In this document: positions 7,362 through 37,941 of the stretch, piece after piece
Layout of the letters: each line of letters begins with the position of its first letter
Numbering within the stretch: the first letter of the stretch is position 1
Origin: Saccharopolyspora rhizosphaerae
Lineage (GTDB): Bacteria > Actinomycetota > Actinomycetes > Mycobacteriales > Pseudonocardiaceae
Assembly (NCBI RefSeq): GCF_003931915.1
Contig: NZ_RSAA01000026.1
Location: 186,001-250,000, forward strand
Direction of reading: 5' to 3'
Length of the DNA stretch: 64,000 nt
Notes under the pieces: generated by a model
The model's input: the letters and a program-made list of their open reading frames with translations, nothing else
Databases searched by the model: none
What the model was told of the DNA's origin: nothing
Program-made: the position numbers and the translations under genes

Positions 7362-7363
7362 CG

Positions 7364-7407: not shown

Positions 7408-7469
7408 CTGGGGACTAGTTACACACGTGTGCTTCGCTGACCGTCTGTCAAGCCAACGATGGGATGAGT

Positions 7470-8853: not shown

Positions 8854-9011
8854 TGTACGCGTGGATCTGGCGGCAGCTGCCCGGCCCCGTCCCGGTCAAG
8901 GCGCTCCTGGCGCTGCTGCTGGTCGCCGCGGTCGTGGCCCTGCTGCTGTTCGTGGTGTTCCCCTGGGTGGAGCCGCGGCTGCCCTTCAGCGACGTGACCA
9001 CCGCCCGGTGA
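8853..9011 (+). CDS. Small single-pass membrane protein after the sortase
   Basis: 52 aa beginning MYAWIWRQLPGPVPVKALL, with one long transmembrane segment (about 17-37, LLALLLVAAVVALLLFVVFP) and an acidic outer tail (WVEPRLPFSDVTTAR). The ATG shares a base with the sortase TGA and GGAGGAGC lies just upstream, so translation is probably coupled. Similar tiny proteins sit between the sortase and pabA in relatives; the function is unknown. Confidence 0.8.
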   Translation: MYAWIWRQLPGPVPVKALLALLLVAAVVALLLFVVFPWVEPRLPFSDVTTAR

Positions 9012-9060
9012 CAGCCTTCACCCGGGAAAACGCGTTGTGGCCGCCGCGTAGTCTGGGCAC

Positions 9061-9699: not shown

Positions 9700-9742
9700 C
9701 CGCAGGTCTCCGGACGCGCTGACCGCAGGTCCTCACGACGCA

Positions 9743-9778
9743 GAGCGGGGCGGTGGCCACTCGGCCGCCGCCCCGCTC
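9743..9778. terminator. Bidirectional terminator between pabA and pknB
   Basis: A 16-bp stem (GAGCGGGGCGGTGGCC with its complement, one G-T pair) and ACTC loop between convergent genes. Upstream there is a 15-bp direct repeat, CGCTGACCGCAGGTC at 9694-9708 and 9717-9731, overlapping the pabA stop. Confidence 0.7.
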
Positions 9779-9791
9779 CGCGTCGGTCAGA

Positions 9792-11749
<1,958 letters not shown>

Positions 11750-11753
<4 letters not shown>

Positions 11754-13159: not shown

Positions 13160-13162
13160 GGA

Positions 13163-16038: not shown

Positions 16039-17511
16039 CTAGCTCACCGTCCGGCAGTTCACGCCAGGTTTCGGCTCCTCCGGCATCAGCGGTGTGGCGT
16101 CGGCCGCGGAGGACTCCGGCGGCAGGGCCTGACCGGGTGTCGGCGCGCCCGGCGTGGGCTGCGCCGGCGGCTGACCCGGCGGAGGTGGTGTCGGCGCACC
16201 CGGGGAGGGGGCGCCCGGAGTGGGCTGGCCCGGCGCGGTCGGCGACGGCGGCACCGTCGGCACCGAGGGCTCGGGGGTCGCGCACTCCGGCAGCAGCGCG
16301 GTCATCCGCAGCCGCCGCATCGCTTCCCGCGCCTCGGTGAGGCCGTTGACCTCGGTGATGCCGTTGCGCACGTCAGGGCGCTGCGCCTCTTGCAGGTCGC
16401 TCAGCTTGATCGGCTGGCAGTCCTTGGCCGAATCCGCCGGGCAGGAGGTCTCCACCTGCCAGTTCAGCGACACGCCCAGGGTCGAGCCCTGGACGCCCTG
16501 GTAGATCACGACCTCATCGGCGCGGTTCACGCCGATGTAGTACTGGTTGAGCACCCACCAACGCCCCACCAGCGCGACAGCCGCTAGCACGATGAGCACG
16601 CCGCAGGCCACCACCAGGGAGGTCAGCCAGCGCTTCTTGCGCGGCTTCTCGGCTGGAGGTGAGGTGGGCTCGAAACGCTTGGGCTGCGGCCGCGGCATGG
16701 TCACCGCGGAAGCGCGCGCCGCCGACGAATCGGGTTGCGGATGCTCATCGCCATTTCCCGCCGCACCCCCCACTATGGGGGCGTCGTCGCCGAACTCGAC
16801 GTCGACGACGTCGGCGATGATCACGGTCACGTTGTCCGGACCGCCACCTTTGAGCGCCAGCTCGATCATCCGGTCCGCGCACTGCTGCGGGTCCGGGATG
16901 CGCAGGGCCTCCGCCATCGTCTCCGTGCTCACGGGGCCGGTCAGGCCGTCCGAGCAGAGCAGGTAGCGGTCGCCCGCGCGAGCTTCGCGGATCGCCAGGC
17001 TCGGTTCCACCTCGTGGCCGGTCAACGCGTGCAGCAGCAGCGAGCGCTGCGGGTGGTTGGCGGCCTCCTCCTCGGTGATCCGGCCTTCGTCGATCAGCGA
17101 CTGCACGAAGGTGTCGTCGTGGGTTATCTGGGTCAGCTCGCCGTCGCGGACCAGGTAGGCGCGGGAGTCACCGATGTGCACCAGACCCAGCTTGCTGCCT
17201 GCGAACAGCACAGCCGTGAGCGTGGTGCCCATCCCGTCCAGTTCCGGGTCGTTGGCCACCAGCTCGGCGATCGCGCTGTTGCCGTCCAGCACCGCACCGC
17301 GGAGCTGTCCGAGCAGGTCGTCACCCGGTTCGTCGTCGTCCAGCGGCGCCAACGCCGCGATGACGACCTTGCTGGCGACCTCACCGGCGGCATGTCCACC
17401 CATGCCGTCCGCGAGGGCGAGTAGTCGTGGGCCGGCATAGACCGAGTCCTGGTTGTTGGAGCGCACCAGGCCGCGGTCGCTGCGGGCTGCGTAGTGAAGG
17501 ACGAGGGTCAT
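16039..17511 (-). CDS. pstP: PP2C-family Ser/Thr phosphatase PstP
   Basis: 490 aa. The PP2C domain (about 1-235) shows the metal-binding motifs SDRGLVRSNNQDS, LLALADGMGGHAAGE, GDSRAYL and LCSDGLTG. A transmembrane helix (about 290-312) and an outer domain follow, then a Pro-rich tail (PTPGAPSPGAP repeats). It reverses phosphorylation by PknA and PknB. The ATG overlaps the fhaB TGA by 4 bp. Confidence 0.97.
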   Translation of the reverse strand: MTLVLHYAARSDRGLVRSNNQDSVYAGPRLLALADGMGGHAAGEVASKVVIAALAPLDDDEPGDDLLGQLRGAVLDGNSAIAELVANDPELDGMGTTLTAVLFAGSKLGLVHIGDSRAYLVRDGELTQITHDDTFVQSLIDEGRITEEEAANHPQRSLLLHALTGHEVEPSLAIREARAGDRYLLCSDGLTGPVSTETMAEALRIPDPQQCADRMIELALKGGGPDNVTVIIADVVDVEFGDDAPIVGGAAGNGDEHPQPDSSAARASAVTMPRPQPKRFEPTSPPAEKPRKKRWLTSLVVACGVLIVLAAVALVGRWWVLNQYYIGVNRADEVVIYQGVQGSTLGVSLNWQVETSCPADSAKDCQPIKLSDLQEAQRPDVRNGITEVNGLTEAREAMRRLRMTALLPECATPEPSVPTVPPSPTAPGQPTPGAPSPGAPTPPPPGQPPAQPTPGAPTPGQALPPESSAADATPLMPEEPKPGVNCRTVS

Positions 17512-17969
17512 GAGCGCAGCTCGATCACCGTCTTGCCGATTCTGATCGGAACGCCGAGCGGGACCTTGGTCGGTCCCGTGACCTTCGCCCGATCGAGGTA
17601 TGTGCCGTTAGTGGAGCCTAGATCCTCCACGTACCAGTCGGAGCCGCGGAGCGACAGCCGAGCGTGCCGGGTCGACGCGTAGTCGTCGTCCAGCACCAAC
17701 GTGGAGTCGTCGGCTCGGCCGATCAGGATCGGCCGGCCGTCCAGGGAAATGCGCGTGCCGGCGAGAGCGCCGTGCGTCACCACCATCTGGCGGGGCACCT
17801 TGCTCTTGCCCCGGGCTTTGCCCGGGGCCCGACTCGCACCTGGCATCGGGACGCGCATCCCCGACGCGGAGTAGAGGTCTGAACGAACCACGCGAAGCGC
17901 AGCCAGCACGAACAACCAGAGCAGGGCGAGGAACCCTGCTCTGGTCAGCTGAATCATCAGCTCCGGCAC
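17508..17969 (-). CDS. fhaB: FHA-domain protein FhaB (FipA)
   Basis: 153 aa: an N-terminal transmembrane helix (about 5-28), a short basic linker, then one forkhead-associated phosphothreonine-binding domain ([35 protein letters not shown]). It reads PknA/PknB phosphorylation and in mycobacteria links it to FtsZ and FtsQ. The GTG start lies 45 bp after fhaA. Confidence 0.95.
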   Translation of the reverse strand: MPELMIQLTRAGFLALLWLFVLAALRVVRSDLYSASGMRVPMPGASRAPGKARGKSKVPRQMVVTHGALAGTRISLDGRPILIGRADDSTLVLDDDYASTRHARLSLRGSDWYVEDLGSTNGTYLDRAKVTGPTKVPLGVPIRIGKTVIELRS

Positions 17970-18014
17970 TTGTTGTGAACGCTCCTACTCGTTTCGGGGA
18001 CCGGTGCTCCGCAC

Positions 18015-19334
18015 TCAGCCCTGCTGGGCGCGGAAGACCAGGGACGAATGCCCAACCCTGATCACGTCACCGTCTGCCAACTGCCAAGTCTGCACCGGAG
18101 TGCCGTTCACCGTGGTGCCGTTTGTCGAACCGAGATCAGCCAGCATCGCGCTCTGACCATCCCAGGTGATCTCGATGTGCTTGCGCGAGACCCCCGTGTC
18201 GGGAAGCCGGAACTGGCCTTCCTGGCCGCGGCCGATGATGTTCGAGCCGTGCTGCAGCGTGTACGAGCGGTTCGAGCCGTCGTCCAGGTGCAGCGTGGCG
18301 GTCATCTGACCACGCGGACCGCCGGCCGGGTAACCGCCAGGAGCGCTCTGCGGGTAGCCACCGCCAGGCTGGCCGTAGCCCTGGTCCGGGAAACCGCCCG
18401 GTGCGCTCTGCGGGTAGGCGCCACCCGGCTGCGCGTAGCCCTGGTCGAAGCCGGGCTGCGAGGGCTGGCCGTAGCCGGGGTCGAAGCCCTGCGGCGGCTG
18501 CCCGTAGCCCTGGTCGTAACCGGGCTGCGGCGGCTGACCGTAGCCCTGGTCGTACCCGGGCTGCGGGGGCTGCGCGTAGCCCTGGTCGTAACCGGGCTGC
18601 GGGGGCTGGCCGTAGCCGGGGTCGAAGCCCTGCGGCGGCTGCCCGTAGCCCTGGTCGTAACCGGGCTGCGGCGGCTGACCGTAGCCCTGGTCGTACCCGG
18701 GCTGCTGGCCGTAACCCTGGTCGTAACCGGGCTGCGGCGGCTGGCCGTAGCCACCCTGCTGGTCGTAGCCCGGCTGGCCGTAAGCCTGCTGGTCGTATCC
18801 GGGCTGGCCGTAGCCGTAGTTGGGGTCCTGGCCTTGGCCGTATCCCTGGTCGTAGCCGTACTGCCCCTGCTGGTTGTACGGATCTCCCTGGGGGTAGTGG
18901 CCTGGTGGCTGGCTCATGGGTCGGTCTCCTGCGGTACGCGGTTGTGCCGGCCGTCGTGTCACGTCGGGGTCGACGGTCGAGCTGATTCGAAACTGTCCCG
19001 TGTGCAGCGTCTCAGAGCGCTCCAGGGAGACTACGACGTCACCATATGTGTCCCACCCCTGCTCGGTGAGGTGCTCCTGAACGCAATCGGCGAGGAGGTC
19101 GGTCACCCGGGCCTCATCACCGGTGAGCCGATCGTGGTCCGACGGGCTCAGTTGCACAACGTAGTGGTTACAAGCGAGCAACCGACCACCGGCAAGCTCC
19201 CGGACCATCAGCTCGGCATCTCGCTGCAAGGCCTGGGCGACTTCCTGCGGAACTACGTTCCCGCCGAACACGCGCGCAAAGCCATTACCGACGATGCCTT
19301 CGATCCGGCGCTCAAAGCGCTGCACGAGGCCCAC
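18015..19334 (-). CDS. fhaA: FhaA: DUF3662 plus FHA domain protein with Gly/Tyr/Gln repeats
   Basis: 439 aa from GTG 19334 ([19 protein letters not shown]), chosen for GGAGGG 8 nt upstream and agreement with the FhaA family; the frame is open further upstream but the tRNA-Leu gene lies there. Order: DUF3662 domain (about 1-120), a ~200-residue linker of [12 protein letters not shown]-type repeats, then a C-terminal FHA domain ([36 protein letters not shown]). FhaA reads PknB phosphorylation and in mycobacteria binds the flippase MviN. It is the first gene of the seven-gene operon. Confidence 0.95.
18462..18705 (-). repeat. Tandem coding repeat inside fhaA
   Basis: A 103-bp segment at 18462-18564 recurs without a mismatch at 18603-18705 (period 141 bp, 47 codons), within a wider run of 33-36-bp units encoding [12 protein letters not shown]-like blocks. 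It is a likely site of length variation by recombination or slippage. Confidence 0.85.
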
Positions 19335-19551
19335 GGCAATATCCCTCCACGCGTACGACTTCTGCTGACCATCGTATCTGGGCCAACGGCCCGCGACACC
19401 GCCCAGTTCCCAAGTTCCCGGCCCCCCTGCGCAGACCCCTACCGGAGCCGTGCTAATGTTCTTCTCGCCAACAGGGCAGCAGGGGAAAGCGAAAGCCGAC
19501 CCCCGGTGTCCAGCGGTGAAAAGCGGCAAGCTAAGCTTCTCATCGTGCCAC

Positions 19552-19634
19552 GGGCGAGTGGCGGAATGGCAGACGCGCACGGTTCAGGTCCGTGTGTCCG
19601 GAAGGACGTGAGGGTTCAACTCCCTCCTCGCCCA
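19552..19634 (+). tRNA. tRNA-Leu (CAG anticodon)
   Basis: An 83-nt class II tRNA: acceptor GGGCGAG/CTCGCCC, anticodon stem CACGG/CCGTG with loop TTCAGGT (CAG at 19585-19587), a long variable arm, and T-arm GAGGGTTCAACTCCCTC. The discriminator is A. It is divergent from the fhaA operon. Confidence 0.97.
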
Positions 19635-24096: not shown

Positions 24097-25296
24097 GTGC
24101 GCCGGATCGATGAGATCACCAGCGGAATCCAGCCACCGTTCGTCGCGGTGGACTTGGCAGCCTTCGACGACAACGCCCAGGACATGGTGCGCCGCGCGGC
24201 CGGCGTGCCGATCCGGATCGCCACGAAGTCCGTGCGCTGCCGGGAACTCATCGCCCGCGCACTGCGGGTGGACGGGTACTTGGGTCTGATGTGCTACTCG
24301 CTGGCCGAGGCCCTGTGGCTGCACGGTGAAGGGCTCAGCGACGACATCCTGGTCGCCTACCCGACCGCCGACCGCGCCGCGCTGCGGGAACTCGCCGCGA
24401 ACCCCAGTGCCGCCGCGGCCATCAGCATCATGGTGGACTCGACCGACCACCTCGACTTCGTCGACGACGCCGTCGGCCCCGACCGGCCGGACATCCGGCT
24501 GTGCGTCGAGGTCGACGCCTCGTGGAAACCCCTGCCCGGCGTGCACATCGGCACCCGCCGGTCACCTCTGCACACCCCTGCGCAGGTCCGGAGGTTCGCG
24601 GAGGCAGCCCAGCGCAGGCGCGGTTTCGCGGTGGTCGGGCTGATGGCCTACGAGGGGCAGATCGCCGGGCTCGGTGACGCCCCACCCGGCAAGCCGTTGC
24701 GCGGAGCCCTGCTGCGCGCCGTCCAGCGCCGTTCAGCGGCCGAGCTCGCGCAGCGGCGCGCGGCGTTGGTGCGGCAGGTGCGCGAGGTCGCGGACCTGGA
24801 GTTCGTCAACGGCGGCGGCACCGGGAGCTTGGAGCGGACCGCGGTGGAGGAGGGCGTCATCACCGAGGTGGCGGCGGGTTCCGGGCTGATCGGCCCGACG
24901 CTGTTCGACGCCTACCGCAGCTTCCAGCCGCGGCCGGCCGTCCTCTACGCCTTGCCGGTGGTGCACCGTCCGGCGAAGAAGATCGTGACGCTGTTCGGGG
25001 GCGGTTACATCGCTTCGGGGCCGCCCGGGGAGGACCGGGTGCCTGCTCCGCACTGGCCGGAGGGCCTGGGGTTGTTGGGGACTGAGGGCGCCGGTGAGGT
25101 GCAGACCCCGGTGATCGGCGCTGCAGCGCGTGGGCTGCGCATCGGCGATCGGGTCTGGTTCCGGCACGCGAAGGCTGGGGAACTCGCGGAGCGGTTCGAC
25201 CGGTACCACCTGATCGACGGCCGCCTGGTGAGCGTGGGGTGCTCGGCCGTCGTCGAGGCGCCGACCTACCGCGGTGAGGGCAGATCGTTCGGATAG
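24097..25296 (+). CDS. PLP-dependent amino acid deaminase/aldolase (alanine racemase N-terminal fold)
   Basis: 399 aa. The N-terminal fold-type III barrel has the PLP lysine in RIATKSVRC (about Lys48) and metal/substrate residues in a C-terminal D-threonine-aldolase/D-serine-dehydratase-like domain (GDRVWFRHAKAGELAERF). Members act on D-threonine, D-serine or hydroxy-amino acids; specificity is not shown. The GTG start lies 94 bp from the divergent oxidase. The 3' end overlaps the TetR gene by 31 bp. Confidence 0.88.
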   Translation: MRRIDEITSGIQPPFVAVDLAAFDDNAQDMVRRAAGVPIRIATKSVRCRELIARALRVDGYLGLMCYSLAEALWLHGEGLSDDILVAYPTADRAALRELAANPSAAAAISIMVDSTDHLDFVDDAVGPDRPDIRLCVEVDASWKPLPGVHIGTRRSPLHTPAQVRRFAEAAQRRRGFAVVGLMAYEGQIAGLGDAPPGKPLRGALLRAVQRRSAAELAQRRAALVRQVREVADLEFVNGGGTGSLERTAVEEGVITEVAAGSGLIGPTLFDAYRSFQPRPAVLYALPVVHRPAKKIVTLFGGGYIASGPPGEDRVPAPHWPEGLGLLGTEGAGEVQTPVIGAAARGLRIGDRVWFRHAKAGELAERFDRYHLIDGRLVSVGCSAVVEAPTYRGEGRSFG

Positions 25297-25958
25297 CCCG
25301 CCATGATCGTCGGTCCGATCACGGTGGAGGGGGTTCGTCGTTCTTCTTTGATCCTGTTGGAGAGGTAGCCGCGGACGAGGTCCTTGGCCTCCGCCAGGAT
25401 CGCTTGGTCGCCGTGGGAGTCGCGCCGGAACGCCAGGTGCAGCACGGCGTCCGCGGCTTCGACGGCGACGGTCAGCGGGAGGGAGAGGTCTGCCGGGTCG
25501 AGGTGGAACTCCTCGGCGATCAGCCCGGTCAGCTTCTCCGCGATGACCGCGTTGTTGTCCTTGCCCGGATCGAGCAGTCGCAGGTCGACCACGTCCCCGA
25601 AGTGCAACCTGCTGAACGCCGGCACCTCGCGGTGCATCGTCAGGTAGGTGTCGAAGACGGCGTCCACGGCATCCCACCAGTGCGCCAGCTCCATCTGCTC
25701 GAAGCGGCTGGAGACGGTCCGCACGAACCGGTCCAGGTTGCGCAGCGTCAACTCCTGCACGACCGCCCGCTTGTCCGGGAAGAACTGGTAGAGCGATCCG
25801 ACCGCGACTCCCGCTCGTTCCGCGATGAGGGTGGTCGTTAACCCGTCGTACCCCACCTCGTCGATGAGGGCGGCGGTGGCCGCGAGCATCCTCTCCACTC
25901 GTTGAGCGCTCCGCTGCTGCACTGGCTTGCGCCGCAGCGGTGCGATTTCTGCAGGCAA
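25266..25958 (-). CDS. TetR family transcriptional regulator
   Basis: 230 aa if translation starts at TTG 25958, chosen for AGGAGG just upstream (spacing short, 4 nt). ATG 26036 would add 26 poorly conserved residues and lacks a ribosome site. The HTH is ERMLAATAALIDEVGYDGLTTTLIAERAGVAVGSLYQFFPDKRAV. The C-terminal ligand domain is all-helical with an acidic loop. It may control the convergent PLP-enzyme gene or itself; the overlap of the two 3' ends is unusual. Confidence 0.9.
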   Translation of the reverse strand: MPAEIAPLRRKPVQQRSAQRVERMLAATAALIDEVGYDGLTTTLIAERAGVAVGSLYQFFPDKRAVVQELTLRNLDRFVRTVSSRFEQMELAHWWDAVDAVFDTYLTMHREVPAFSRLHFGDVVDLRLLDPGKDNNAVIAEKLTGLIAEEFHLDPADLSLPLTVAVEAADAVLHLAFRRDSHGDQAILAEAKDLVRGYLSNRIKEERRTPSTVIGPTIMAGYPNDLPSPR

Positions 25959-26335
25959 TGCGCCTCCTAGGGTCGGAGTTGTGCAACCAGTTTGCTGCGG
26001 AACGAGGACTCGTGCGTTTCGGACATGCCGCGACATCGTAAGTCGAAGGGGTGAATTCGCTAGGCGTACCTTGATTTTCGTCCAGTGTTACATCCCGGCC
26101 GGGTGAAACCCCCGATCGGCCTGGTGATCCCGGAGCGTTACAGGAAATCGATATGCATTGAGTCATGTTGTCAACGCGGAGGGTCGCTATCTAGTGTGAC
26201 GGGAGTCGTCATTCTCCGTGACAGAAGGGTCATTGTGGGTCACTGCACGGCTGCCCTCCGTCTGTTCGTCGTACCCGGGTTCGCTCTCCGGTGTGCCGAA
26301 GCCACCACCTCGGCCCCGTGACGGCTCGGGACACG
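25959..26335. other. Intergenic region upstream of the first HAD-PvcA-like gene
   Basis: 377 bp shared by the divergent TetR gene and the large plus-strand gene. It is less GC-rich than its surroundings around 26130-26200 and contains two GTTACA elements (26087 and about 26137), so promoters for either direction are plausible. I see no gene. Confidence 0.4.
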
Positions 26336-29300
26336 ATGACGGCGCGACAGGTGGAGGCGGACCTGCCGTTGCTGGCGGAGGACCACGCGTCGGACGGCTG
26401 GTCGGTGGCGGAGCTGCCGGCCCCGGGGCCCTGGCGCGCGCTCACCGTCGCGGAGGCGAACGACCTGCTCACCGCCGGCGGCTACGGCCTCTGGGTGGAA
26501 CGCGACGCGGACGGCGGACTGCTGCTGGCCGGAATCGGCACCGGCATCCCGCTCGGCGCCAACGCGACCTGGGTCGACCTGTACCGCGCGCTGGTCCGGC
26601 TTCGCCGCACCCGGCGGGTCTTCGACGCGGCGTGGCTGCACCGCCTCACCGGTTCCCTCGGCCCGGGCACCGGCGGCTCGCCGCAGGTCACCGAAGTCCC
26701 GGCGGAACGCGTCGACCTGCTCGCCGGTGAGCACCGCGAACTCGCGCACCGGGTGCTGGCCTCGTTGCACGGTCCCGGAACCGGCCCGAAGGTGCCGTTC
26801 CCCGAAGCGCGGGTCACCGTCGGGCGACGCGAACGCGCCGTGCGCGTGCAAGCCGTCGACTCCCCGGACCGCGCGTGGCGAGCGCTGCAGGGGTGGGAGC
26901 GCTTCGCCGGCGTCGTGGCGGCCGACCCCGAACTGCGGATGCACTGCGCGACCCAGCCCGTCCCCGCGGCCGTGGTCGACACCGGCACCGGGAGCACCGC
27001 GCTGCTGCGCGTCGTCGACCCGGCCCCGGCGCACCCGAGCCACCCGGGCGGCACGATCGCCGCCGACCTCGCAGCCCTGCTGCACCCCGACGCCGACGGA
27101 ACACCGAAGCTCCTGCGTGTCGTGCTGGACAACCGCTTCGCGCGCCGCGAGGACGAGCTCGACCACTTCCTGGAGCACTTCGTCCGGCCGCTGCTGCGGG
27201 TGTTCCGGCTGGCACTGGACACCCACGGCCTCGGCCTGTTCGCCTTGGACGAGAGCGGTTTCGCCATCGAGCTCTCCCCGGAGCTGCAGGCCACCGGGCG
27301 GATCGTGGTCACCGACCACGAGCGGATCACCGCCGAACCCAGCCGGGCCGAGGTCACCACCGGGGTGCGAGCGCTGGTCAGCACGCTGGAACGGCTCGGC
27401 GACGGGTTCGCGGCGCTGCGCGCCGACCGCCGCGACCACGAGGTCCGCGACGCCGTGCGGCGCGTCGTCGGTGAGGAGCTGCGCTACCTCGCCCCGCACA
27501 CCGCCGAGCTCCTCTCCGGCGAGCAGCCGCTGCAGAGCTACGCGCACACCGTCCCGGAGTCCCAGGACGCGGTGCTGAAGTCGGTGCTCGAGCGGGTCCA
27601 GCAGGCCACCCGCGAACGTCGCTGGAACCCGGGCGCGCCCCAGCCGGCCGTGGTCATCGACCTCGACCTGTGCGGACTGGTCCCGCTCCAGCGGATCACC
27701 GACGCCGCCCGGGCCATCTCGGGCCCGCGGCCCGGCGCACCCGGCGGCATCCTCGAACTCGCCGGTCCCGCAACGCTGCCCGTGCTGCCCACGCACGTCC
27801 CCGGCAGCTGGGAGCACTTCGTGCGGGCCAGCGGCCTCGGCGAGCGCTACCCGGCGGTGGACTGGGAGCGGCTGCGCGGCGACTTCCTGCGTGCCTTCCA
27901 GTCCCGACCCCGCGAGCGGCTGCGCACCGACCACGTCAACGCGGGCTTGGCCCGGTTCGTCTGGGACGTGCAGGACGCCGGCGGCCAGGTCGTGTTCTGC
28001 ACCGCCCGCAAGGAGCGGTTCCGGGAGGTCACCGCCGAGGTGCTGGCCGAAGCCGGAGTGCCGGACGCGACGCTGCTCGTCGTGCCCGACCACACCACCC
28101 GGCCGATCGCGGAGGTCAAGGCGGAGCGGGTCCGCGCGCTCGACGGGCTGGACGTGGTCGCCGTCTTCGACGACGAGCAGTCCAACCGCGCCGCGGTGCG
28201 CGCCGACTTCGGTGACGCGCTGCCGGTCGCCGTGGAAGTCCCGGGACTCGCCGGGCAACGGGGTCCGGACGACCCGGTCCCCGACGGTGCCGCCGTGATC
28301 GCCACCTTCGAGACCCGCCCGAGCGCGCCCGGCGGCCCGAAGTTGTCCAACACGCACTCGCTGGAAGAGCTCCAGATCGGCGCGATGCGTCGCAACCCGC
28401 TCGCCCGCCGCTGGGCGGTGCACCTCACCGAAGGCGAAACGCGCTCCCTCGTCGACTCGATCGTCGCCGACACCGACCGCGCCGCGGTGCGCACCGGCCG
28501 CAGCGCGGTCGCGAAGTTCGGCCTCGAGGAGCACCCGGACGACGTCGAGCGGGTGCTGCCGGCGCTGCACCACGTGCTGACCCGCAAGCAGTTCATCAAG
28601 GGTTCTCGCGCGAACTACCGGCTCGAGGACCTCGAGCGGGACGCGGAAGAACCGGTGCGCGCCGGCGAACCGATCGACGTGGTGCTGCTGGGTTTCCCGG
28701 TCAAGCAGTGCCTGAACAGGCTCAAGGCCTCCGGGCCGCTGCCGGACCTGGCCGAACTCGGTGCGATGGCCCGGTTGCGCGAGATGCAGCGCGCCGTCGC
28801 GGCGGTGCACCCACCGGGCTTGCGCTTCAACATCCTCACCGACGGCCGGCACTTCCGGAGCCGGCCCGCCGCGATCGTCGACGCCTACCAGCGCAAGCTG
28901 CGCGAGTACGTCGACCTCGTCGGCATCGGCGACCGCACGGTCGTCGCCGACATCGACGAGGTCGCCGAGCAACGCCTCGGACCGGGCCTGCACGCCGAAC
29001 GCGCCCGCCGGATCGCGAACTACCGGAAGCTGCTCAGCGACCGGCTGCGCGACTTCGACATCACCGACAACCCGTTGCGCACCTTGGAAGCGGTGCACGA
29101 CTGGTCGACGGGTGAGACCGACTTCGCGCCGCACGTCATCGGGCTGTTCCGGGAAATCCTCATGTCGCTGGTGTACTCCGTCCCGGTCACGGTGCCGCGC
29201 GGCACCGACCGGCTCGAGTGGTCGGTGGCCCTCTACGCCGACATCTACAACGTCACCGATCCCAGCGCGTCCGCCGAGATCCGGCAGGGTCGCCGCGCGG

Positions 29301-29719
29301 TGCTGCGCCGCGCGTGGCACACGGTCATCCGCTACATGGCGACGATGCAGGTGGACGACGAGTTCGGCTACGAGCGGATGTTCCCGCACCGGGTCCGGCT
29401 GACGCTGAGCGCGGTGCGCAAGGGCTGCCTCGGCTTCACCTACCTCGGCGGCTCGGGCCTGCTGCCCTGGCAGGGGACCGGGGTGCTGGACCCACGCGGC
29501 CGCGTCGCGATCGACTTCGCGGTTTCCCTGCAGGACCAGGGTTTCGTGCCGGTCTACTCACCGCTGCTCGGGCCGCGCCAGCCGTGGGCCATGGTCCCGG
29601 CGGACCGCACGCACCTCGTCGAGCCCTCGAACGTCCCCGCACCCCGCGGTGTTCCGGCCCGAGCAGGGCTGACCCTGGACGAGGAGTTCGCCCGGAAGGC
29701 CAGGCTCCGCAGGAAGTAG
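26336..29719 (+). CDS. Large HAD-like plus DIT1/PvcA-like (isonitrile synthase-like) fusion protein, paralogue A
   Basis: About 1127 aa from ATG 26336 (in-frame GTGs at 26291 and 26318 are alternatives; none has a clear ribosome site). Order: an unassigned N-terminal ~435 residues; a HAD-type domain with DLDLCGLVP (Asp442, Asp444), FCTARK (Thr556), a lysine near 595 and VFDDEQSN (Asp612/613); then ~500 residues resembling DIT1/PvcA isonitrile synthases, with LLGFPVKQ (Lys790), LPDLAELGA, HPPG, NILTDGRHF (Asp836) and PWQGTGVL near 1045. PvcA enzymes convert an amino acid and ribulose-5-phosphate to an isonitrile; whether this protein does so is inference. Its paralogue lies at 34197. Confidence 0.72.
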   Translation: MTARQVEADLPLLAEDHASDGWSVAELPAPGPWRALTVAEANDLLTAGGYGLWVERDADGGLLLAGIGTGIPLGANATWVDLYRALVRLRRTRRVFDAAWLHRLTGSLGPGTGGSPQVTEVPAERVDLLAGEHRELAHRVLASLHGPGTGPKVPFPEARVTVGRRERAVRVQAVDSPDRAWRALQGWERFAGVVAADPELRMHCATQPVPAAVVDTGTGSTALLRVVDPAPAHPSHPGGTIAADLAALLHPDADGTPKLLRVVLDNRFARREDELDHFLEHFVRPLLRVFRLALDTHGLGLFALDESGFAIELSPELQATGRIVVTDHERITAEPSRAEVTTGVRALVSTLERLGDGFAALRADRRDHEVRDAVRRVVGEELRYLAPHTAELLSGEQPLQSYAHTVPESQDAVLKSVLERVQQATRERRWNPGAPQPAVVIDLDLCGLVPLQRITDAARAISGPRPGAPGGILELAGPATLPVLPTHVPGSWEHFVRASGLGERYPAVDWERLRGDFLRAFQSRPRERLRTDHVNAGLARFVWDVQDAGGQVVFCTARKERFREVTAEVLAEAGVPDATLLVVPDHTTRPIAEVKAERVRALDGLDVVAVFDDEQSNRAAVRADFGDALPVAVEVPGLAGQRGPDDPVPDGAAVIATFETRPSAPGGPKLSNTHSLEELQIGAMRRNPLARRWAVHLTEGETRSLVDSIVADTDRAAVRTGRSAVAKFGLEEHPDDVERVLPALHHVLTRKQFIKGSRANYRLEDLERDAEEPVRAGEPIDVVLLGFPVKQCLNRLKASGPLPDLAELGAMARLREMQRAVAAVHPPGLRFNILTDGRHFRSRPAAIVDAYQRKLREYVDLVGIGDRTVVADIDEVAEQRLGPGLHAERARRIANYRKLLSDRLRDFDITDNPLRTLEAVHDWSTGETDFAPHVIGLFREILMSLVYSVPVTVPRGTDRLEWSVALYADIYNVTDPSASAEIRQGRRAVLRRAWHTVIRYMATMQVDDEFGYERMFPHRVRLTLSAVRKGCLGFTYLGGSGLLPWQGTGVLDPRGRVAIDFAVSLQDQGFVPVYSPLLGPRQPWAMVPADRTHLVEPSNVPAPRGVPARAGLTLDEEFARKARLRRK

Positions 29720-30916: not shown

Positions 30917-31138
30917 CGTCCGCCCCAAGGTCCTGTCTGTGCTCGCTGCTTGCTGATGACTACATTGGTGCCTGGCGGTCGCCGCGCCTAGAGGACAGGC
31001 GACGACCGGACCGGAGGCCGCGACGAGCGGTAAGCGGACTTCACCGCAACCGATCACCTCCACCGATACGGGCTTCACCGGGTTGCCGCAGTGCGCTTAC
31101 TCTGCGAGCAACGCCCGTTCAGAGCGTCAGGGGGTCAA
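30917..31138. promoter_or_regulatory. Divergent promoter region
   Basis: 222 bp between two divergent start codons, so it must hold promoters in both directions. A possible plus-strand element is TTGCCG (about 31083) followed by TTACTC (about 31097). The regulator itself may act here, but no clear operator stands out. Confidence 0.45.
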
Positions 31139-32509
31139 ATGAACATCATCGGATCTGGCGGCTCGCCCGTTACTCCCGACGTCTGGAACGAGCGGGACAT
31201 GCGGGATGCGCTGGCCCGGCGGGACGTCAGCGAGGTCTACCGGCAACTGCGCCGGCACGGGGTCTCGCAGCGGCAGATCGCCGCTTCCACCGGTCAGTCC
31301 CAGTCCGAGGTGTCCGAGATCCTCAAGGGTCGACAGGTCATGGCGTACGACGTGTTGGCCCGAATAGCCGACGGGCTCGGCATCCCGCGGGGCTACATGG
31401 GCCTCGCTTACGACGGGGCGACCGCGATGCGGGTCGCGAAAGCGACGAACGCCCTGGAAGCGGAGGAGGACGAATCGGTGAAGCGTAGGAAGTTCCTGTC
31501 CCACGCGGCCGCGGTGACCATGGGCGCCGCGGTGTTCGGCACCGAGGACAGCGCCTGGGCGCCCGCCAGCGCCTCGACTCCGGCTCCGGCACGCATCGGC
31601 ATGACCGATGTCCAGCAGATCCAGGCCGCCACGAAGGCACTGCGGGACCTCGACTACCGCTACGGCGGTGGCACCTGCCGCGACGCCGTGGTCGCCCAGC
31701 TCTCGTGGGCCCAGCAGCTGTTGGACTCGACCTCCAGCGACCCCGTGCGCAAGCAGCTGTTCGTGGCGCTCGCCGACATGCACAGCCTGGCCGGCTGGAC
31801 CTCGTTCGACGTGGGCCTGCTGGACCCGGCGCGCAGTCACTTCGGCCGCGCCCTCGAGTTCGCCAAGCGCGCTGACGACGACAGCCTCGTCGCCAGCGTG
31901 CTGTACCGGATGGGCCGGGTCTACCTGCACTACCAGGAGCCCAACGAAGCGTTGAAGCTGTTCCAGCTCGGCCAGATCGCCGCGCAGGAATCGGGCTCGG
32001 CGCTGACCGTCGCGGTGCTGTGCGCGAACGAGGCCTGGGCCTACGGGATGCTCAACAAGCCCGACCAGGTGCAGAAGATGGTGGGCCGCACCAAGGACGA
32101 GTTCGCCCGCGCCAAGGTGGACGAGGCTCCGGACTGGGTCCGCTTCTTCACCGAGAACGACCTGCACGGCATGATCGGCTCCGCGCACGACGCGCTGGCG
32201 GTGTTCGATCCCAAGAAGCACGCCTCGATCGCGGTGGCCGAGACCATCAAGTGCAACGAGGCCTACGGCGCGGACATGCAGCGCACCCATGTTTTCGGGC
32301 TGAGTCTGCAGGCAACCAACCACTTCCGGGCCGGCGACGTTCAGGAAGGCCTGAAGGTCGGACGTCGCGCGCTGCAGTTCGGTGAGCGCGTGAAGTCCGC
32401 CCGTGTCGCCGACCGGCTCAAACCACTGGAGCTGGAAGCGGGCAAGCACCGGGCGAACTCGGATTCCCGCGACCTCTTCGAGGAAGTCCGGCGGTTCCGC
32501 CAGGCGTGA
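31139..32509 (+). CDS. XRE-type HTH regulator with TPR-like domain and internal Tat-like motif
   Basis: 456 aa from ATG 31139 with AGGGGG upstream. The N-terminal HTH is in VYRQLRRHGVSQRQIAASTG and SEVSEILKGR. At about 115-135 lies KRRKFLSHAAAVTMGAAVF, an RRxFL motif plus a hydrophobic run like that in NsdA-type Streptomyces regulators. The C-terminal ~300 residues are helical TPR-like repeats (ALEFAKRADDDSLVASVLYRMG, ALKLFQLGQIAAQ). NsdA proteins control differentiation and antibiotic genes; the target here is inferred to be local. The motif is internal, so export is unlikely. Confidence 0.85.
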   Translation: MNIIGSGGSPVTPDVWNERDMRDALARRDVSEVYRQLRRHGVSQRQIAASTGQSQSEVSEILKGRQVMAYDVLARIADGLGIPRGYMGLAYDGATAMRVAKATNALEAEEDESVKRRKFLSHAAAVTMGAAVFGTEDSAWAPASASTPAPARIGMTDVQQIQAATKALRDLDYRYGGGTCRDAVVAQLSWAQQLLDSTSSDPVRKQLFVALADMHSLAGWTSFDVGLLDPARSHFGRALEFAKRADDDSLVASVLYRMGRVYLHYQEPNEALKLFQLGQIAAQESGSALTVAVLCANEAWAYGMLNKPDQVQKMVGRTKDEFARAKVDEAPDWVRFFTENDLHGMIGSAHDALAVFDPKKHASIAVAETIKCNEAYGADMQRTHVFGLSLQATNHFRAGDVQEGLKVGRRALQFGERVKSARVADRLKPLELEAGKHRANSDSRDLFEEVRRFRQA

Positions 32510-32560: not shown

Positions 32561-33475
32561 ATGAGCATGAAGACATACCAGGTTCACCAGGGTCAGTGCG
32601 TCCCGCCGGAACTGGAACTGGCGCTGACCGAGATCTGCGAGACCGTCGGCCTGAACCCGCGTGGTGCTCGGCTGATCAGGTTCATCAACAACGGCGTTTT
32701 CCTGCTTCGGGACGAACCCGTGATCGTCCGGCTGGTGCTGTCCCCGTCCTTCGCGCACCGGGCACGCACCGCGGTCGAGGCCGCCCACTGGCTGGCGATG
32801 CACGGGGTGCCCGCGGTCCGGCTGCTCCCGGGTGTGGAGCAACCGGTCCGGTCCGGCTCGCACTGCGCGACGCTGTGGCAGTTCGTGCCGGAGGAAGGCC
32901 GCGTTCCGGGCAGCGCTGACCTGGGCAATCTGCTGCGGCAGATGCACTCCCAGCCCTTGGCCGAGGAGACCTTCAAGCCCTGGAAGCCGATGGCCGACAT
33001 CCGGCGTCGGCTCAGCGATGCGGTGGACATCGACCCGGAGGACCACCGGTTCCTCCAGGAGCGGTGCGACTACCTCGAGGAACAGCTGGCCGAGCTGGAG
33101 TTCCCGCTGCCGCGCGCGGTCATCCACGCCGACGCCCACCTGGGCAACGTGATCGGTGGCCCGGACGGCCCGCTGCTGTGCGACCTGGACTCGCTGTGCA
33201 TCGGGCAGCCCGAGTGGGACCTCACGCCGATCGCGGTGGGCAGCCTGCGGATGGGTCATCCCGCGGAGTGGCACCGGGAGCTGGCCGAGGCCTACGGGTT
33301 CGACATCACCTCGTGGGAGGGCTTCCCCGTGCTCCGCGAGCTGCGCGAACTCAAGATCACCACCGGCGTGCTGCCGATCCTGCGCACCAACCCGAGCGTG
33401 CGCGAGCAGCTCAGCTGGCGGCTCCGCACGATCCGCGAAGGTGACCTCGACACCCAGTGGGCCCCGTACAGCTGA
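32561..33475 (+). CDS. APH-family small-molecule phosphotransferase
   Basis: 304 aa of the aminoglycoside phosphotransferase/choline kinase fold. The catalytic Brenner motif is IHADAHLGN (His189, Asp191, Asn196) and the metal-binding Asp is in LCDLDSL (Asp208/210). The N-lobe is shorter than in resistance enzymes. The substrate is unknown; proteins like this often phosphorylate small metabolites rather than drugs. It lies 51 bp after the HTH-TPR gene, probably in one transcript. Confidence 0.85.
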   Translation: MSMKTYQVHQGQCVPPELELALTEICETVGLNPRGARLIRFINNGVFLLRDEPVIVRLVLSPSFAHRARTAVEAAHWLAMHGVPAVRLLPGVEQPVRSGSHCATLWQFVPEEGRVPGSADLGNLLRQMHSQPLAEETFKPWKPMADIRRRLSDAVDIDPEDHRFLQERCDYLEEQLAELEFPLPRAVIHADAHLGNVIGGPDGPLLCDLDSLCIGQPEWDLTPIAVGSLRMGHPAEWHRELAEAYGFDITSWEGFPVLRELRELKITTGVLPILRTNPSVREQLSWRLRTIREGDLDTQWAPYS

Positions 33476-33687
33476 GCGGACCCGGCGAGCCTCCCGTACT
33501 CCGGTGAGGTCGCTGGGAGTGGTCGTCCGCTGGCACGTCCGCATGAGACCTGATGCGTCCGATCGGGCGATGTTGGGCTTTCTGCGGTGTCTTCCTGCTC
33601 GGTTTCGGTCACACGGTTCGACCTGAAGGGGTAAACCATACGAGCGAACTGGTGCATCGAGTCGGTGCTAACGCGGATGGGCTGTCG

Positions 33688-33996
33688 ATGAGGATCGCTG
33701 AGTTCCGGCCGGGAGAGCACTCCCGGCGCTCGCGCCGAGCCCGCGCGCTCGCCAGCGCGCAGGTGCTGGACGAGATCGTGGACGGCCACCTCGAATCGAT
33801 GCGGCAGTTGCCGCCCGAGTTCCGCGAGCCGTACGCCGAGCACCTCGCCGAACTGGTGGGGGTGGCCCAGGCGTACCGGCACTACGCGGCGGGGTGGATC
33901 TCGCGCCGGGAGCTCCACCGGCGTGCCCGCGCCGCGCTGCGGCGGATGGACGAGCCGAACGGGCCCGCTCCGGTGCAACTCGTCGACGGTGAATGA
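33688..33996 (+). CDS. Small helical hypothetical protein
   Basis: 102 aa from ATG 33688; an ATG at 33553 is possible but the added residues look non-coding. It is Arg- and Glu-rich and predicted helical (ARALASAQVLDEIVDGHLESM, AYRHYAAGWISRRELHRRAR). No motif recognised. It lies between the kinase and paralogue B; membership of the same transcript is possible but the flanking gaps (~200 bp) are wide. Confidence 0.55.
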   Translation: MRIAEFRPGEHSRRSRRARALASAQVLDEIVDGHLESMRQLPPEFREPYAEHLAELVGVAQAYRHYAAGWISRRELHRRARAALRRMDEPNGPAPVQLVDGE

Positions 33997-34196: not shown

Positions 34197-36614
34197 GTGT
34201 ACGCAACCGGCACGCTGCCGGCAAGCGCGCGGGAGACCCTCGCGCGCGATCCCCTTCTCGCGAAGTACTGCCTGGTCGGAACCGCTGCCCGCGACACGGT
34301 CCCGCTGTCGGCCCCGCCGGACTCCTCCGAGCGCGACCTGGTCGAGCGGCTCGTGCGGCCGGTGGTCATCACCGCCCGCGGACTCCTGGCGGCGGGTCAG
34401 GTCCCGGTCGGAGAGCTCCGCCTGCACCGCCCGAGCGGTCGGGTCGTGGTGCCGGTGCTCGCCGTCGCCGAACCGGACCGGGTGGCCACGACGATCACCC
34501 GGTTGCACGATCGGCTCACCGCGATCACCCCGGCCGCGGCGGACGTCGTGGCCCAGGAGCTGCGGTTCTGCTCGGCGGGGTTGGTGTCGGTGCTGGCCGG
34601 CGACCACCCCTGGAGCCGGTGGGCGCACCACGTCCCGTCCACTCAGGACGAGCTGCTGCAGCGGGTGCTGCGGCTGGTCAAGGACCGGGCCGCCGCGCAC
34701 CGCCGGGACCCCGCGACCCCGCGACCGCTGGTCGCTCTCGACCTGGACTTCTGCGCCTTCCACCCGCGCACGCGCGTGCGGGAGGCGCTGGTGGCGATCG
34801 GCGTCACCGGTGACCTGCCGGTGCTGCCGGGGTTGCACGAGCGGGGCTGGCGCCCGTTCCTCGAGCGCGCCGGTCTCCCGGACGACCTGCGGCACGCGGA
34901 CTTCCGGCGGGCGATCTCGTGGGGCCGGGAGGCCTTGCTGACCGACGAGCTCGCGCCCGGCGTGCGCCGGTTCGCCGGTGACGTCGAGCAGGCCGGCGGG
35001 CGCGTGGTGCTGCTGACCGGCCGTCGTCACCGGATGCGCGCCGCCACCGAGGAAGCCCTGACCCGCTGCGGTCTCGGACACCTCCCGCTGCGCACGGCCG
35101 CCGAGGGTGCGGACGTCGGGGAGCACAAGGTCGCCGCGCTGCGCGGCATGACCGGGTGGGAACCGGTGGCCGCCTTCGACGACGCGGAGGCCAACCGGAC
35201 CGCCTTGGCCGACGCGTTCCCCCAGGCCGTGGTGGTCCCGGTCGTCGCGCCCGGGTTCACCGGGGTGGATGAGGACGACGCCATCGGCACCTTCGAGACG
35301 GTGCCGCGGCCGGTGCCGCTCGGGCGCGGGCACCTCGCTCGACCGAGCCTGTCGCACGCGACCTCGATCGCCCAGCTGCAGCTCGGCGAGATGAGCGCCC
35401 GTCCGGCGTGGTGGGACCGGGGTGTCGTGCTCACCGAGGAGGAGCAGGCCGAGATCGTGGTCGCGCTGTGCCGGAGCGCGGTGGAGACCGGGATCCGGCT
35501 CGGCGACCGGGTGGCCGCCATCGAGGTGGGCACTGCCAGGGCGGTCTGGCAGGTCATGCAGGCGAAGCTGTTCGGAGCCTCCCGGAGCGCCTACCCGCTC
35601 GAGCAGGCCGAGGCGGACCTCTCCCGCGCGCTCGCCGCCGGTGAGCCGGCCGAGTTCGTGCTGCTCGGCCCGCCGACGAAGCAGGACGGTTCGCAGCTCA
35701 AGGCGCTCGGTGGTCTGCCGGACCTGGCCGAGGTCGCGATGTTGGCGCGCGTGCTGCAGCTCGACGCCGCGGTGCGACGAGTGCACCCGCCGGGGATCCG
35801 GGTGACCGCGCTGGCGGACCCGACCCACTTCCGCTTCCGCGACGCCCGGCGCTACCGCGGTTACCAGCGGGAGTTCCGGCGGATGCTGGAGCGGACCGGC
35901 GCGGACCGGGTGGTGGAGTTGCGCGGCGTCGACGAGGTCGCGGCCGAGTTCGGCTGCGGTGACGCCCAGCAGCGCGCCGCCCTGCTGGTCCGCCACCGCG
36001 AGCGCTACGAGTCGGCGCTGGCCGAGCTGGACGTCCGGTCCGATCCGCGCGGAGCGCTGGCCGCGGCCGACGAGCTCGACCCGGGGTGTTCCGGTCAGCC
36101 GCGCTTCGCGGAGATGTTCCGCTCGATCGTCCACGCGGTCGACCTCCCGCACTCCGGCGCCGATCCGCTGGAGTTCGCCCGCCGCGTCTACACCGAGCCG
36201 TTCGGCCTGGCCGATCCCGAGCTGGGGGACACCCGGCGGGAGCTGCTGGCGCTGGCCTGGGACGAGACGATCACCTACCTGGCGAACAAGCACGTCGACG
36301 CCGAACTCGACTACGCCGCCCTGTGGCGCCACGACCGGGTGCGGACAAGCCTGTCGCTGCGCCCGGAGCCGGGACGGTTCCGCTTCCTGCCGCTGGGCGG
36401 GTCCGCGGTCATGCCCTGGCAGGGGACCGCGGCGCTGGGCAGCGGCAACGAGGTGTCGACGGACTTCGCGATCTCGCTCGTCGACCAGTGCTACCTGCCG
36501 GTGTGGACGCCGGACCGGCAGTCGCAGCCGTGGTTGGCGGTCCCGCCGGACCTGGTGCGGGACGGTGCCCTCGACCCGTCGGTGCGGACCGGGATCCACC
36601 TCCGCACGAAGTGA
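34197..36614 (+). CDS. HAD-like plus DIT1/PvcA-like fusion protein, paralogue B
   Basis: 805 aa; GTG start with AAGGAGA 6 nt upstream. It corresponds to the last ~800 residues of paralogue A and lacks that protein's first ~330. The HAD-like domain has DLDFCAFHP (Asp182, Asp184), LLTGRRH (Thr274), a lysine near 311 and AFDDAEAN (Asp328/329). The PvcA-like part has LLGPPTKQ (Lys495), LPDLAEVAM, HPPG, ALADPTHF (Asp541) and MPWQGTAAL near 741. Where A has TDGRH, B has ADPTH, so their chemistry may differ. An 18-bp terminator follows. Confidence 0.72.
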   Translation: MYATGTLPASARETLARDPLLAKYCLVGTAARDTVPLSAPPDSSERDLVERLVRPVVITARGLLAAGQVPVGELRLHRPSGRVVVPVLAVAEPDRVATTITRLHDRLTAITPAAADVVAQELRFCSAGLVSVLAGDHPWSRWAHHVPSTQDELLQRVLRLVKDRAAAHRRDPATPRPLVALDLDFCAFHPRTRVREALVAIGVTGDLPVLPGLHERGWRPFLERAGLPDDLRHADFRRAISWGREALLTDELAPGVRRFAGDVEQAGGRVVLLTGRRHRMRAATEEALTRCGLGHLPLRTAAEGADVGEHKVAALRGMTGWEPVAAFDDAEANRTALADAFPQAVVVPVVAPGFTGVDEDDAIGTFETVPRPVPLGRGHLARPSLSHATSIAQLQLGEMSARPAWWDRGVVLTEEEQAEIVVALCRSAVETGIRLGDRVAAIEVGTARAVWQVMQAKLFGASRSAYPLEQAEADLSRALAAGEPAEFVLLGPPTKQDGSQLKALGGLPDLAEVAMLARVLQLDAAVRRVHPPGIRVTALADPTHFRFRDARRYRGYQREFRRMLERTGADRVVELRGVDEVAAEFGCGDAQQRAALLVRHRERYESALAELDVRSDPRGALAAADELDPGCSGQPRFAEMFRSIVHAVDLPHSGADPLEFARRVYTEPFGLADPELGDTRRELLALAWDETITYLANKHVDAELDYAALWRHDRVRTSLSLRPEPGRFRFLPLGGSAVMPWQGTAALGSGNEVSTDFAISLVDQCYLPVWTPDRQSQPWLAVPPDLVRDGALDPSVRTGIHLRTK

Positions 36615-36661: not shown

Positions 36662-37204
36662 TCAGCTCTTCGGCTTGCCGAGGCGCAGGGCCAGGACGAG
36701 CCCGAGGACCACGACCAGCACGGCACCGGCGATCCACGGCCAGATCGGCATCCCGCCGGAACCGGACTCCGCCTGGTCAGCGGGCTGACCGGAGTCCTGT
36801 CCGCCCTGCGGTCCGGGTGCCGGGGTGCCCGCGCCGGGGGCGGTCAGGGTGAAGGTGACCTTGCCCGGGACGGGGTGGCCGTCGCTGGACAGGACCCGGT
36901 AGCCCACGGTGTAGGTGCCGGCCGGCCCGAGCTCGCGGACCGGGGCGACGACCGAGTTGCCCTCGACCCGCGCCGGGCCGTCCGCCCAGTACGAGCCGTC
37001 CGGACCGACCACGTTGACGGTGTTGTAGGACTCGCCCGCGCGGACCGGCTGGTCGAAGGTCAACCGCACCTCGCGAGGTCCCGCCGAGAGCTGCGCGCCC
37101 TCCGCCGGGTCGCTGCCGACCAGCACGTTGTGCGCGAGCGCCGGAGCGGCACCGCCCACCAGCGCGGCCAGGGCGAGGGCTCCGACGGTCAGCAGCCGCC
37201 TCAT
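36662..37204 (-). CDS. copC: CopC-domain copper-binding membrane protein
   Basis: 180 aa. A signal peptide is followed directly by HNVLVGSDPAEGAQLS, whose N-terminal His is the usual copper ligand, then a ~95-residue CopC fold with a second His in SSDGHPVPG. A Gly/Pro/Gln linker and one C-terminal transmembrane helix anchor it. It should bind copper outside the membrane. The start overlaps the YcnI gene by 4 bp. Confidence 0.9.
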   Translation of the reverse strand: MRRLLTVGALALAALVGGAAPALAHNVLVGSDPAEGAQLSAGPREVRLTFDQPVRAGESYNTVNVVGPDGSYWADGPARVEGNSVVAPVRELGPAGTYTVGYRVLSSDGHPVPGKVTFTLTAPGAGTPAPGPQGGQDSGQPADQAESGSGGMPIWPWIAGAVLVVVLGLVLALRLGKPKS

Positions 37205-37941
37205 GACGCGTCCCCGCCGGAACGACGGCCGCGGACCAGGGCACCGGCACCGACGCCGACGCCCAGCGCGCCGACGAGCAGTCCGGCTCCACCGAGGTAG
37301 CGGGCCGTGTCGTCCGACGACCCGTGCTGACCGGCGGCCTGGTGCTCGCCCTGCTCGGGCGCGGGCGCGCCACCGCCGTGGCTGTGCCCACCGCCCTCGG
37401 CGGCGACCAGCTGAACCACCGGAGCCGGGTGCTCCGGTTCCTCACCGCCGGGCGCCGGCGGCTGGTTCCACTCCACGACCTTGCCGTTGTCGTAGGTCTG
37501 GGTGGTGGGCAGGACCAGCTGGTCGGTGTTCTCCGGCAGGGTGCCGAGCGTCGCCTCGAACTCGTGGAACTCGTTCGGGCCGATCCGGGTGCCGGGCTGG
37601 GCGGTCCAGGTGATGCTGCGGACCGCCTCGGTGACCTGCGCACCCTCGACCTCGACCGGCGCGATCGGCCCCTTCTCGACCTGCGCGGTCCAGCCGGGGA
37701 TCGGCTTGGTGCGCACCGAGCTCAGCGGGTACTGCTCCGGCAGCGTCACCTTGACCTGCACGGTCCCGGCGGCGGGGTCTTCGTTGGGCACGCGGAACGC
37801 GATCTTCGCGTGCCCGCCCTTCTCGGCCTGCTCGGGCTGTGCGCTCACGTGCGCCATGGCGGGCGCGGCACCCAGGGCGAGGGCGAGACCGCTCACCGCG
37901 ATCACGTTCGCCGATCGCGCGAGGAATCGATTTGTCGACAT
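37201..37941 (-). CDS. ycnI: YcnI family (DUF1775) copper-binding protein
   Basis: 246 aa. A signal peptide ends near APAMA, followed by HVSAQPEQAEKGG; this mature N-terminal His plus a conserved Trp (PGWTAQV) is the copper(II) site described for YcnI. A His-rich stretch (GGGHSHGGG) and a C-terminal transmembrane helix follow. With CopC and the next membrane protein it forms a copper uptake or handling operon. Confidence 0.92.
   Translation of the reverse strand: MSTNRFLARSANVIAVSGLALALGAAPAMAHVSAQPEQAEKGGHAKIAFRVPNEDPAAGTVQVKVTLPEQYPLSSVRTKPIPGWTAQVEKGPIAPVEVEGAQVTEAVRSITWTAQPGTRIGPNEFHEFEATLGTLPENTDQLVLPTTQTYDNGKVVEWNQPPAPGGEEPEHPAPVVQLVAAEGGGHSHGGGAPAPEQGEHQAAGQHGSSDDTARYLGGAGLLVGALGVGVGAGALVRGRRSGGDAS

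Follow-up and report, generated by a model that had tools for sequence, protein, structure and literature searches.

The 64,000-nucleotide stretch analysed here (the window; positions 186,001 to 250,000 of contig NZ_RSAA01000026.1 from Saccharopolyspora rhizosphaerae) holds a long gene, gene A, whose product joins a conserved N-terminal domain, a HAD-like domain, and a DIT1/PvcA-like domain. A sequence-only reading of the window had proposed the fusion of the last two parts, and the motifs it cited (DLDLCG, FCTARK, K595, and FDDEQSN, followed by LLGFPVKQ, LPDLAELGA, HPPG, TDGRHF, and PWQGTGV) are all present in the translation. It overlooked a paralogue with the same HAD and PvcA-like core, gene B, separated from gene A by 4.5 kb. 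The features of the two genes are as follows.

26336..29719, plus strand: gene A, three-domain protein of 1127 amino acids (open reading frame scan, Pfam, and orthologues)
26393..27571, plus strand: N-terminal domain of gene A, residues 20-412, conserved in A-type relatives, fold unassigned
27584..28324, plus strand: HAD-like domain of gene A, residues 417-663, with D442, D444, T556, K595, D612, and D613
28340..29716, plus strand: DIT1/PvcA-like domain of gene A, residues 669-1127 (PF05141, profile-profile comparison, and PDB relatives)
29393..29413, plus strand: VRLTLSA, the counterpart of classical VRLSIHP, with the His replaced
29465..29473, plus strand: PWQ, the counterpart of classical PWH
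29705..29716, plus strand: C-terminal tail LRRK; all 78 homologues have Arg at -3 and finish with Lys/Arg
34197..36614, plus strand: gene B, paralogue of 805 amino acids, with a shortened N-terminus, a HAD-like domain, and a PvcA-like domain
34665-35315, plus strand: HAD-like domain of gene B
35346-36611, plus strand: PvcA-like domain of gene B

Gene A starts at ATG 26336, or at an alternative in-frame GTG upstream at 26291, and stops at 29719. It is a real gene, as seen from the 93% GC at its third codon positions and from orthologues of 85-89% identity in five named Saccharopolyspora genomes (L003-L007), which also hold gene B at 77-80% identity.

Both genes belong to the PvcA superfamily. 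The PF05141 profile matches gene A significantly (1.9e-15), at 57.5 bits, and gene B at 36.6 bits, against a curated cut-off of 26.4, and no further PF05141 place was found in the host genome. The proposed fusion holds. The HMMER match in gene A spans residues 774-903 and profile positions 5-138, which is the first half of the profile only. When an alignment of PvcA-like domains was compared by hhalign with 13 classical PvcA sequences from the host's bacterial family, both halves aligned, at 99.4% local and 99.7% global probability. The C-terminal halves alone gave a profile-profile score of 39.6. Controls scored at most 20.2 in 60 column shuffles (a lenient null, since shuffling columns breaks local order), 10.7 with a reversed profile, and 18.7 and 15.1 in two cross-half comparisons. 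In the PDB, the relatives are 3e59 (PvcA) and two isonitrile synthases, 9dhm and 9dh4. Neither gene reaches the cut-off of 600 for the L-tyrosine isonitrile synthase model NF045653 (20 bits for A, 17.1 for B).

The PvcA-like domains of genes A and B belong to a clade that is lineage-restricted and sharply set apart from classical PvcA. A search with the clade profile found 86 places in 65 of 294 genomes of the bacterial family (counted by hand from the search table), matching the 445 profile positions completely or almost so, with E values below 1e-140. All other listed matches, classical PvcA included, have E values above 1e-23, which leaves a clean gap; the alignment-based genome searches capped the candidates scored in each genome (at 5, for instance). 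The places comprise 54 long A-type frames (953-1231 amino acids), 20 B-type frames (808-1000), and 12 short frames (473-630) that are unfused or cut. Within this sample, B-type copies are confined to the host genus, labelled g1 here (other genera are g6, g13, g14, g20, and so on); among the 22 g1 genomes listed, A occurs in 21 and B in 20. A class-wide sample of 296 genomes shows the clade in the host genome only, with five others matching at E values of about 1e-11 to 1e-12. The branch between the clade and classical PvcA is very long, at 2.9-3.3 substitutions per site. The order within the tree is weakly supported, with unfused members basal at 53% in IQ-TREE, and the placement of the B-type differs between FastTree and IQ-TREE.

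Within the clade, constraint centers on the PvcA-like domain. We aligned 78 homologues from 13 genera (the full set of 20 B-type copies, with 53 A-type and 5 short copies out of 54 and 12, respectively) and found 29 positions identical in all of them, every one within this domain: S675, L697, R758, G786, K790, L796, K797, A798, G800, P803, D804, R813, P827, D836, R843, Y851, P913, S944, R986, W994, D1007, F1034, G1038, G1039, P1044, W1045, Q1082, P1083, and R1125. No position outside the domain could be scored as invariant, because the five unfused members lack the other domains. Four more positions (E807, G828, R889, and R1021) are near-invariant, each failing in one to three sequences, and several of the invariant set correspond to positions that are also fixed in the 13 classical sequences. 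Median pairwise ratios of nonsynonymous to synonymous substitution rates (dN/dS) for the HAD and PvcA-like domains, respectively, are 0.198 and 0.109 in Saccharopolyspora A, 0.305 and 0.287 in B, 0.075 and 0.163 in g20, 0.53 and 0.228 in g38, and 0.366 and 0.188 in g43 (medians taken over six genomes in each of Saccharopolyspora and g20, ten in g38, and three in g43). The PvcA-like median is lower than the N-terminal one in five of five groups and lower than the HAD one in four, the exception being g20. The N-terminal stretch of gene B has a dN/dS of 0.617 and is weakly constrained, but it is short. Could the product of gene A nevertheless be a noncatalytic or regulatory relative, or the gene a damaged one being lost? 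Such a status would fit the loss of histidines conserved in classical PvcA, described below, and the decay of the HAD domain in some genera. However, the 29 positions that do not vary among the 78 homologues, which span 13 genera, together with a dN/dS of 0.11 for the PvcA-like domain of Saccharopolyspora A, indicate purifying selection, and we regard this explanation as very unlikely.

A separate observation concerns the extreme C-terminus: all 78 homologues end in a hydrophobic residue followed by Arg-x-Lys/Arg, exactly LRRK in 44 of them. An active-site tail and a recognition signal are two possible readings.

The HAD-like domain is nearest to the PNKP and acid-phosphatase types. Motifs I-IV occur in order in gene A, with all equivalents of its six residues in gene B, although the Pfam scores stay under the cut-off of 27 bits (PF03767, 19.1 bits with the whole gene A protein and 21.9 with the domain alone). 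A reverse search with the HAD profile turned up matching proteins in 65 of 167 further genomes, mostly over motifs II-IV, with a best E value of 1e-10. All seven of those inspected in full have HAD-like motifs, and the one scanned for families matched HAD_PNKP at 43.1 bits, above the cut-off of 27.6.

Conservation of this domain is uneven. Since the motif-III Lys column is poorly aligned, we give counts both with and without it. All six residues are present in 27 of 53 A copies with the Lys strictly counted and in 20 of 20 B copies; Lys aside, the set is complete in 35 A copies and all 20 B copies and incomplete in 18 A copies. Complete six-residue sets are found in 6/6 copies of g20, 6/6 of g46, 2/2 of g13, and 2/2 of g35, and in 0/10 of g38, 0/3 of g43, and 0/1 each of g6, g14, and g24, the loss in g14 being limited to the motif-II Thr. 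The g1 A copies are complete in 11 of 21 cases with the Lys and in 19 of 21 without it. Five of the 53 A copies (g6, g24, and three from g43) retain a HAD stretch of just 75-101 residues, so in those copies the fusion is merely a remnant. As the dN/dS values above show, the HAD domain is under strong constraint in g20, and that constraint is relaxed in g38 and g43. The loss of its residues in several genera, with raised dN/dS, makes the phosphatase look auxiliary and dispensable, and the PvcA-like domain the constrained core.

This pattern bears on the suggestion from the sequence-only reading that the HAD domain could prepare or recycle a sugar phosphate, taken here as supply or recycling of ribulose-5-phosphate in cis and as an integral step of isonitrile synthesis. 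This model is favored by the intact residues (Lys aside) of 35 among the 53 A copies and of every one of the 20 B copies, and by g20, where the HAD domain is the most constrained part. However, the model sits poorly with the genera that have no complete set, with the five shortened domains, and with g38 and g43, where HAD dN/dS is raised and the PvcA-like value stays lower. In addition, ten genomes have only a short unfused clade copy, and in these no match to the HAD or N-terminal profile was found at E values of 0.001 or below, several of the ten assemblies being fragmented. The PNKP-type proteins nearest to this HAD domain also give no hint of pentose phosphates. Altogether, we consider an integral role in ribulose-5-phosphate supply improbable.

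The N-terminal ~400 residues of gene A give no Pfam match. The sequence-only reading had recognized nothing in the first ~330 residues, and it missed the conservation of the N-terminus in A-type relatives. The N-termini of the other 13 members examined give single weak Pfam matches only (best 0.0043), a PDB search with the domain found no relative below an E value of 0.09, and the N-terminal profile has no match in 157 other genomes of a class sample. The same reading had seen a faint IucA/IucC resemblance, and this gains some weak support: an hhalign comparison with 20 IucA/IucC proteins scored 40.6 at a probability of 35%, against a maximum of 19.4 in 60 shuffles (again a lenient null), 18.6 for a reversed profile, and 23.7 and 17.8 for the unrelated PvcA and HAD profiles. 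The likeness covers 112-168 columns, roughly residues 183-297 of gene A. Set against it, PF04183 (IucA/IucC) matches 0 of 14 members, and gene A is not among the PF04183 places of the host genome. A relationship to IucA/IucC is suggestive only. Outside the clade genes, the host genome has one borderline match to the N-terminal profile (G000:C5:438718-439116, E 9.3e-4), in a frame of 435 amino acids.

Our preferred explanation, to which we assign about an even chance, is that gene A encodes a composite enzyme with a PvcA-like catalytic core that retains the reaction type of the superfamily, an auxiliary HAD phosphatase, and perhaps an IucA/IucC-like N-terminus. The PvcA-like domain is the conserved core and probably an enzyme, and most likely keeps the superfamily reaction, in which an amine would attack the carbonyl carbon of a sugar phosphate and one carbon would be transferred to the nitrogen. 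This would leave, on a substrate other than free Tyr/Trp, either an isonitrile or the N-formyl group that is its hydration equivalent. The HAD domain would be a true phosphatase in an auxiliary role, taking phosphate off what remains of the donor or off a phosphorylated product; its activity could speed or pull the reaction and yet be losable. In copies with intact residues the phosphatase is probably genuine, but the family overall can dispense with it. The N-terminal domain may be a degenerate IucA/IucC-like module for substrate binding or scaffolding. What the sequences show directly is the architecture of three parts, the clade, the pattern of constraint, and the decay of the HAD domain; activity, substrates, and products are inferred from these.

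Several observations weigh against this explanation. The SIHP and PWH motifs are invariant in the 13 classical sequences and also present in the aligned PDB sequences; gene A lacks both of these classical isonitrile synthase motifs. The SIHP histidine is replaced in all 78 aligned homologues, which makes isonitrile synthesis uncertain. Of the 53 A copies, 43 have Gln in place of the PWH histidine and 10 keep the His; among the 20 B copies the split is 6 and 14, and all 5 unfused copies keep it. With these replacements, the chemistry may have changed. Also unfavorable are the weakness of the IucA/IucC resemblance and the absence of a PF04183 match, and the absence of the PvcB/IsnB oxygenase family (PF02668) among the 22 window proteins scanned, which include A and B and are not all of the window's genes. 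The block of TetR, NsdA-like, and APH genes around A, described below, exists also without A, and so marks a conserved site and reveals no pathway. Finally, in g20 the HAD domain is held tighter than the PvcA-like domain (0.075 versus 0.163), contrary to a merely auxiliary role there; this speaks for a real HAD role in that genus.

Given the loss of the SIHP histidine, altered chemistry is a serious rival. The PvcA-like domain may have abandoned isonitrile chemistry altogether, making instead a one-carbon adduct such as an N-formyl group, in line with what has been reported for yeast Dit1. The missing histidines and the very long branch to classical PvcA are consistent with this, and there is a precedent: according to the part of PMC7345447 available, PvcA does not replace Dit1, which is reportedly no isocyanide synthase and whose product is most likely formyl tyrosine. 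However, the available part of PMC5974471 proposes a tyrosine isocyanide as the Dit1 product, and the clade retains other residues in common with classical PvcA. We hold such a change to be possible, though not the expected outcome. A bolder proposal is that one polypeptide unites three modules that were each once enzymatic: a carboxylate module like that of siderophore synthetases, a phosphatase, and a module like isonitrile synthases. Together they would make a previously unknown one-carbon-nitrogen metabolite in a large family of actinobacteria, the PvcA-like module using a new donor or acceptor and an active site that works without the SIHP histidine. This we view as speculative and rather doubtful.

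Turning from the composite enzyme to its surroundings, the neighbors of genes A and B within the window are these.

25266..26036, minus strand: TetR-family regulator, oriented divergently to gene A; found at the site in the absence of A as well
31091..32509, plus strand: NsdA-family XRE/TPR-like regulator between A and B, a conserved site gene without specificity for A
32561..33475, plus strand: APH-family phosphotransferase between A and B
33553..33996, plus strand: small conserved protein, function unassigned, between the APH gene and B

The TetR, NsdA-like, and APH genes flank A and B in most loci. We rejected a dedicated operon of gene A with these genes, as they also occur without it. The APH gene is found in 221 of 294 family genomes at an E value of 1e-50 or better, and so is no specific partner. 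The TetR gene is present in 11 of 14 genomes searched, including all 7 outside the genus that have no clade match (5 of these 7 matches span one stop codon); those without it are G241 (g1, no clade match) and G002 and G037, which have short unfused copies. At eight homologous-site loci without A (L154-L161), the TetR and NsdA-like genes are called in 8/8 and the APH gene in 7/8, and no called protein there matches any of the three domain profiles; one of these genomes (G017, L161) does have a short unfused copy, further down that contig. For g20, the single locus examined has gene A elsewhere, among unrelated neighbors. CopC and DUF1775 genes follow directly downstream of gene B on the opposite strand (36662-37941). 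A copper link by way of these is unsupported, as they also occur near the site in loci without gene B.

Other divergent PF05141 proteins turned up along the way. In another genus, locus L054 (2524-5797) has two consecutive genes (625 and 489 amino acids) weakly similar to the PvcA-like part of gene A, a divergent tandem. Two g45 loci (L048 9281-10558 and L049 9065-10420) encode another divergent PF05141 protein of 426-452 amino acids, adjoined, as judged by eye, by a TetR-like regulator and an HtpG-type chaperone gene. Six genomes (G034, G068, G182, G285, G670, and G330) have frames of ~410-420 amino acids with intermediate PF05141 scores of 54-121 bits, which may bridge classical PvcA and the more divergent groups. 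Elsewhere in the window, 57754-60969 encodes a 1071-amino-acid fusion of methyltransferase, family-2 glycosyltransferase, and group-1 glycosyltransferase domains, and 563-19580 resembles by eye what we take to be the gyrA/pknB/rodA/pstP block near the replication origin.

How new is gene A? It represents a new architecture and subfamily within a known superfamily, and we found no earlier description of the subfamily. A survey of isocyanide synthases describes single-domain and dioxygenase-fused forms in bacteria and forms fused to nonribosomal peptide synthetases (NRPS) in fungi (PMC5974471), and a fungal survey, whose dataset contains only those three variants, urges study of bacterial isocyanide synthases (PMC10153163), in the parts of both that were accessible. 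The accessible part of PMC13273461 has nothing on a HAD-fused isonitrile synthase architecture, and our literature search, which covered titles and abstract openings and left most subscription journals outside its coverage, returned no HAD-fused isonitrile synthase. Gene A thus adds a further architecture to the three named in the seen parts of these surveys, two of them bacterial, and this architecture marks a whole subfamily. As the subfamily keeps some PvcA residues and replaces others, it offers a test of which residues the chemistry needs, and its HAD-decayed lineages are natural experiments that separate the contributions of the two fused parts.

Comparison with known systems places each part of gene A in context. 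IucA/IucC synthetases (PF04183) carry a His-x-Gln/Glu-Asn family motif. The N-terminal domain resembles them by weak profile similarity, but it lacks this motif as well as the PF04183 match. PNKP-type and class III HAD phosphatases (PF25109, PF03767) share the motif order and profile matches over motifs II-IV, whereas the HAD domain of gene A is under the Pfam cut-offs, is fused to a PvcA-like domain, and has a long gap between motifs I and II (442 to 556). The core domain belongs to the same superfamily as PvcA/IsnA (PF05141; 3e59, 9dhm/9dh4) over its whole length, with the motifs FP-x-K, K, PD..E, PG, DG..F, Y, R..AW, VRL, and PW in the same order. Unlike PvcA/IsnA, the clade is on a long branch, has replaced the SIHP and often the PWH histidine, and has RQP at the GRPSH position; gene A adds fused domains, with no oxygenase partner among the 22 window proteins scanned, and, by hand count against 3e59, has ~47 more residues between DG..F and VRL and a longer C-terminus. 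The IsnAB, XanB, and CrmA fusions likewise join an isocyanide-synthase domain to further domains, but their partner is a dioxygenase or an NRPS, and none has a HAD or IucA-like part in the portions of the sources available. Yeast Dit1, likened here by superfamily membership, is a single-domain protein, yet it too is a divergent member of this superfamily, one whose product is disputed in the available parts of PMC7345447 and PMC5974471.

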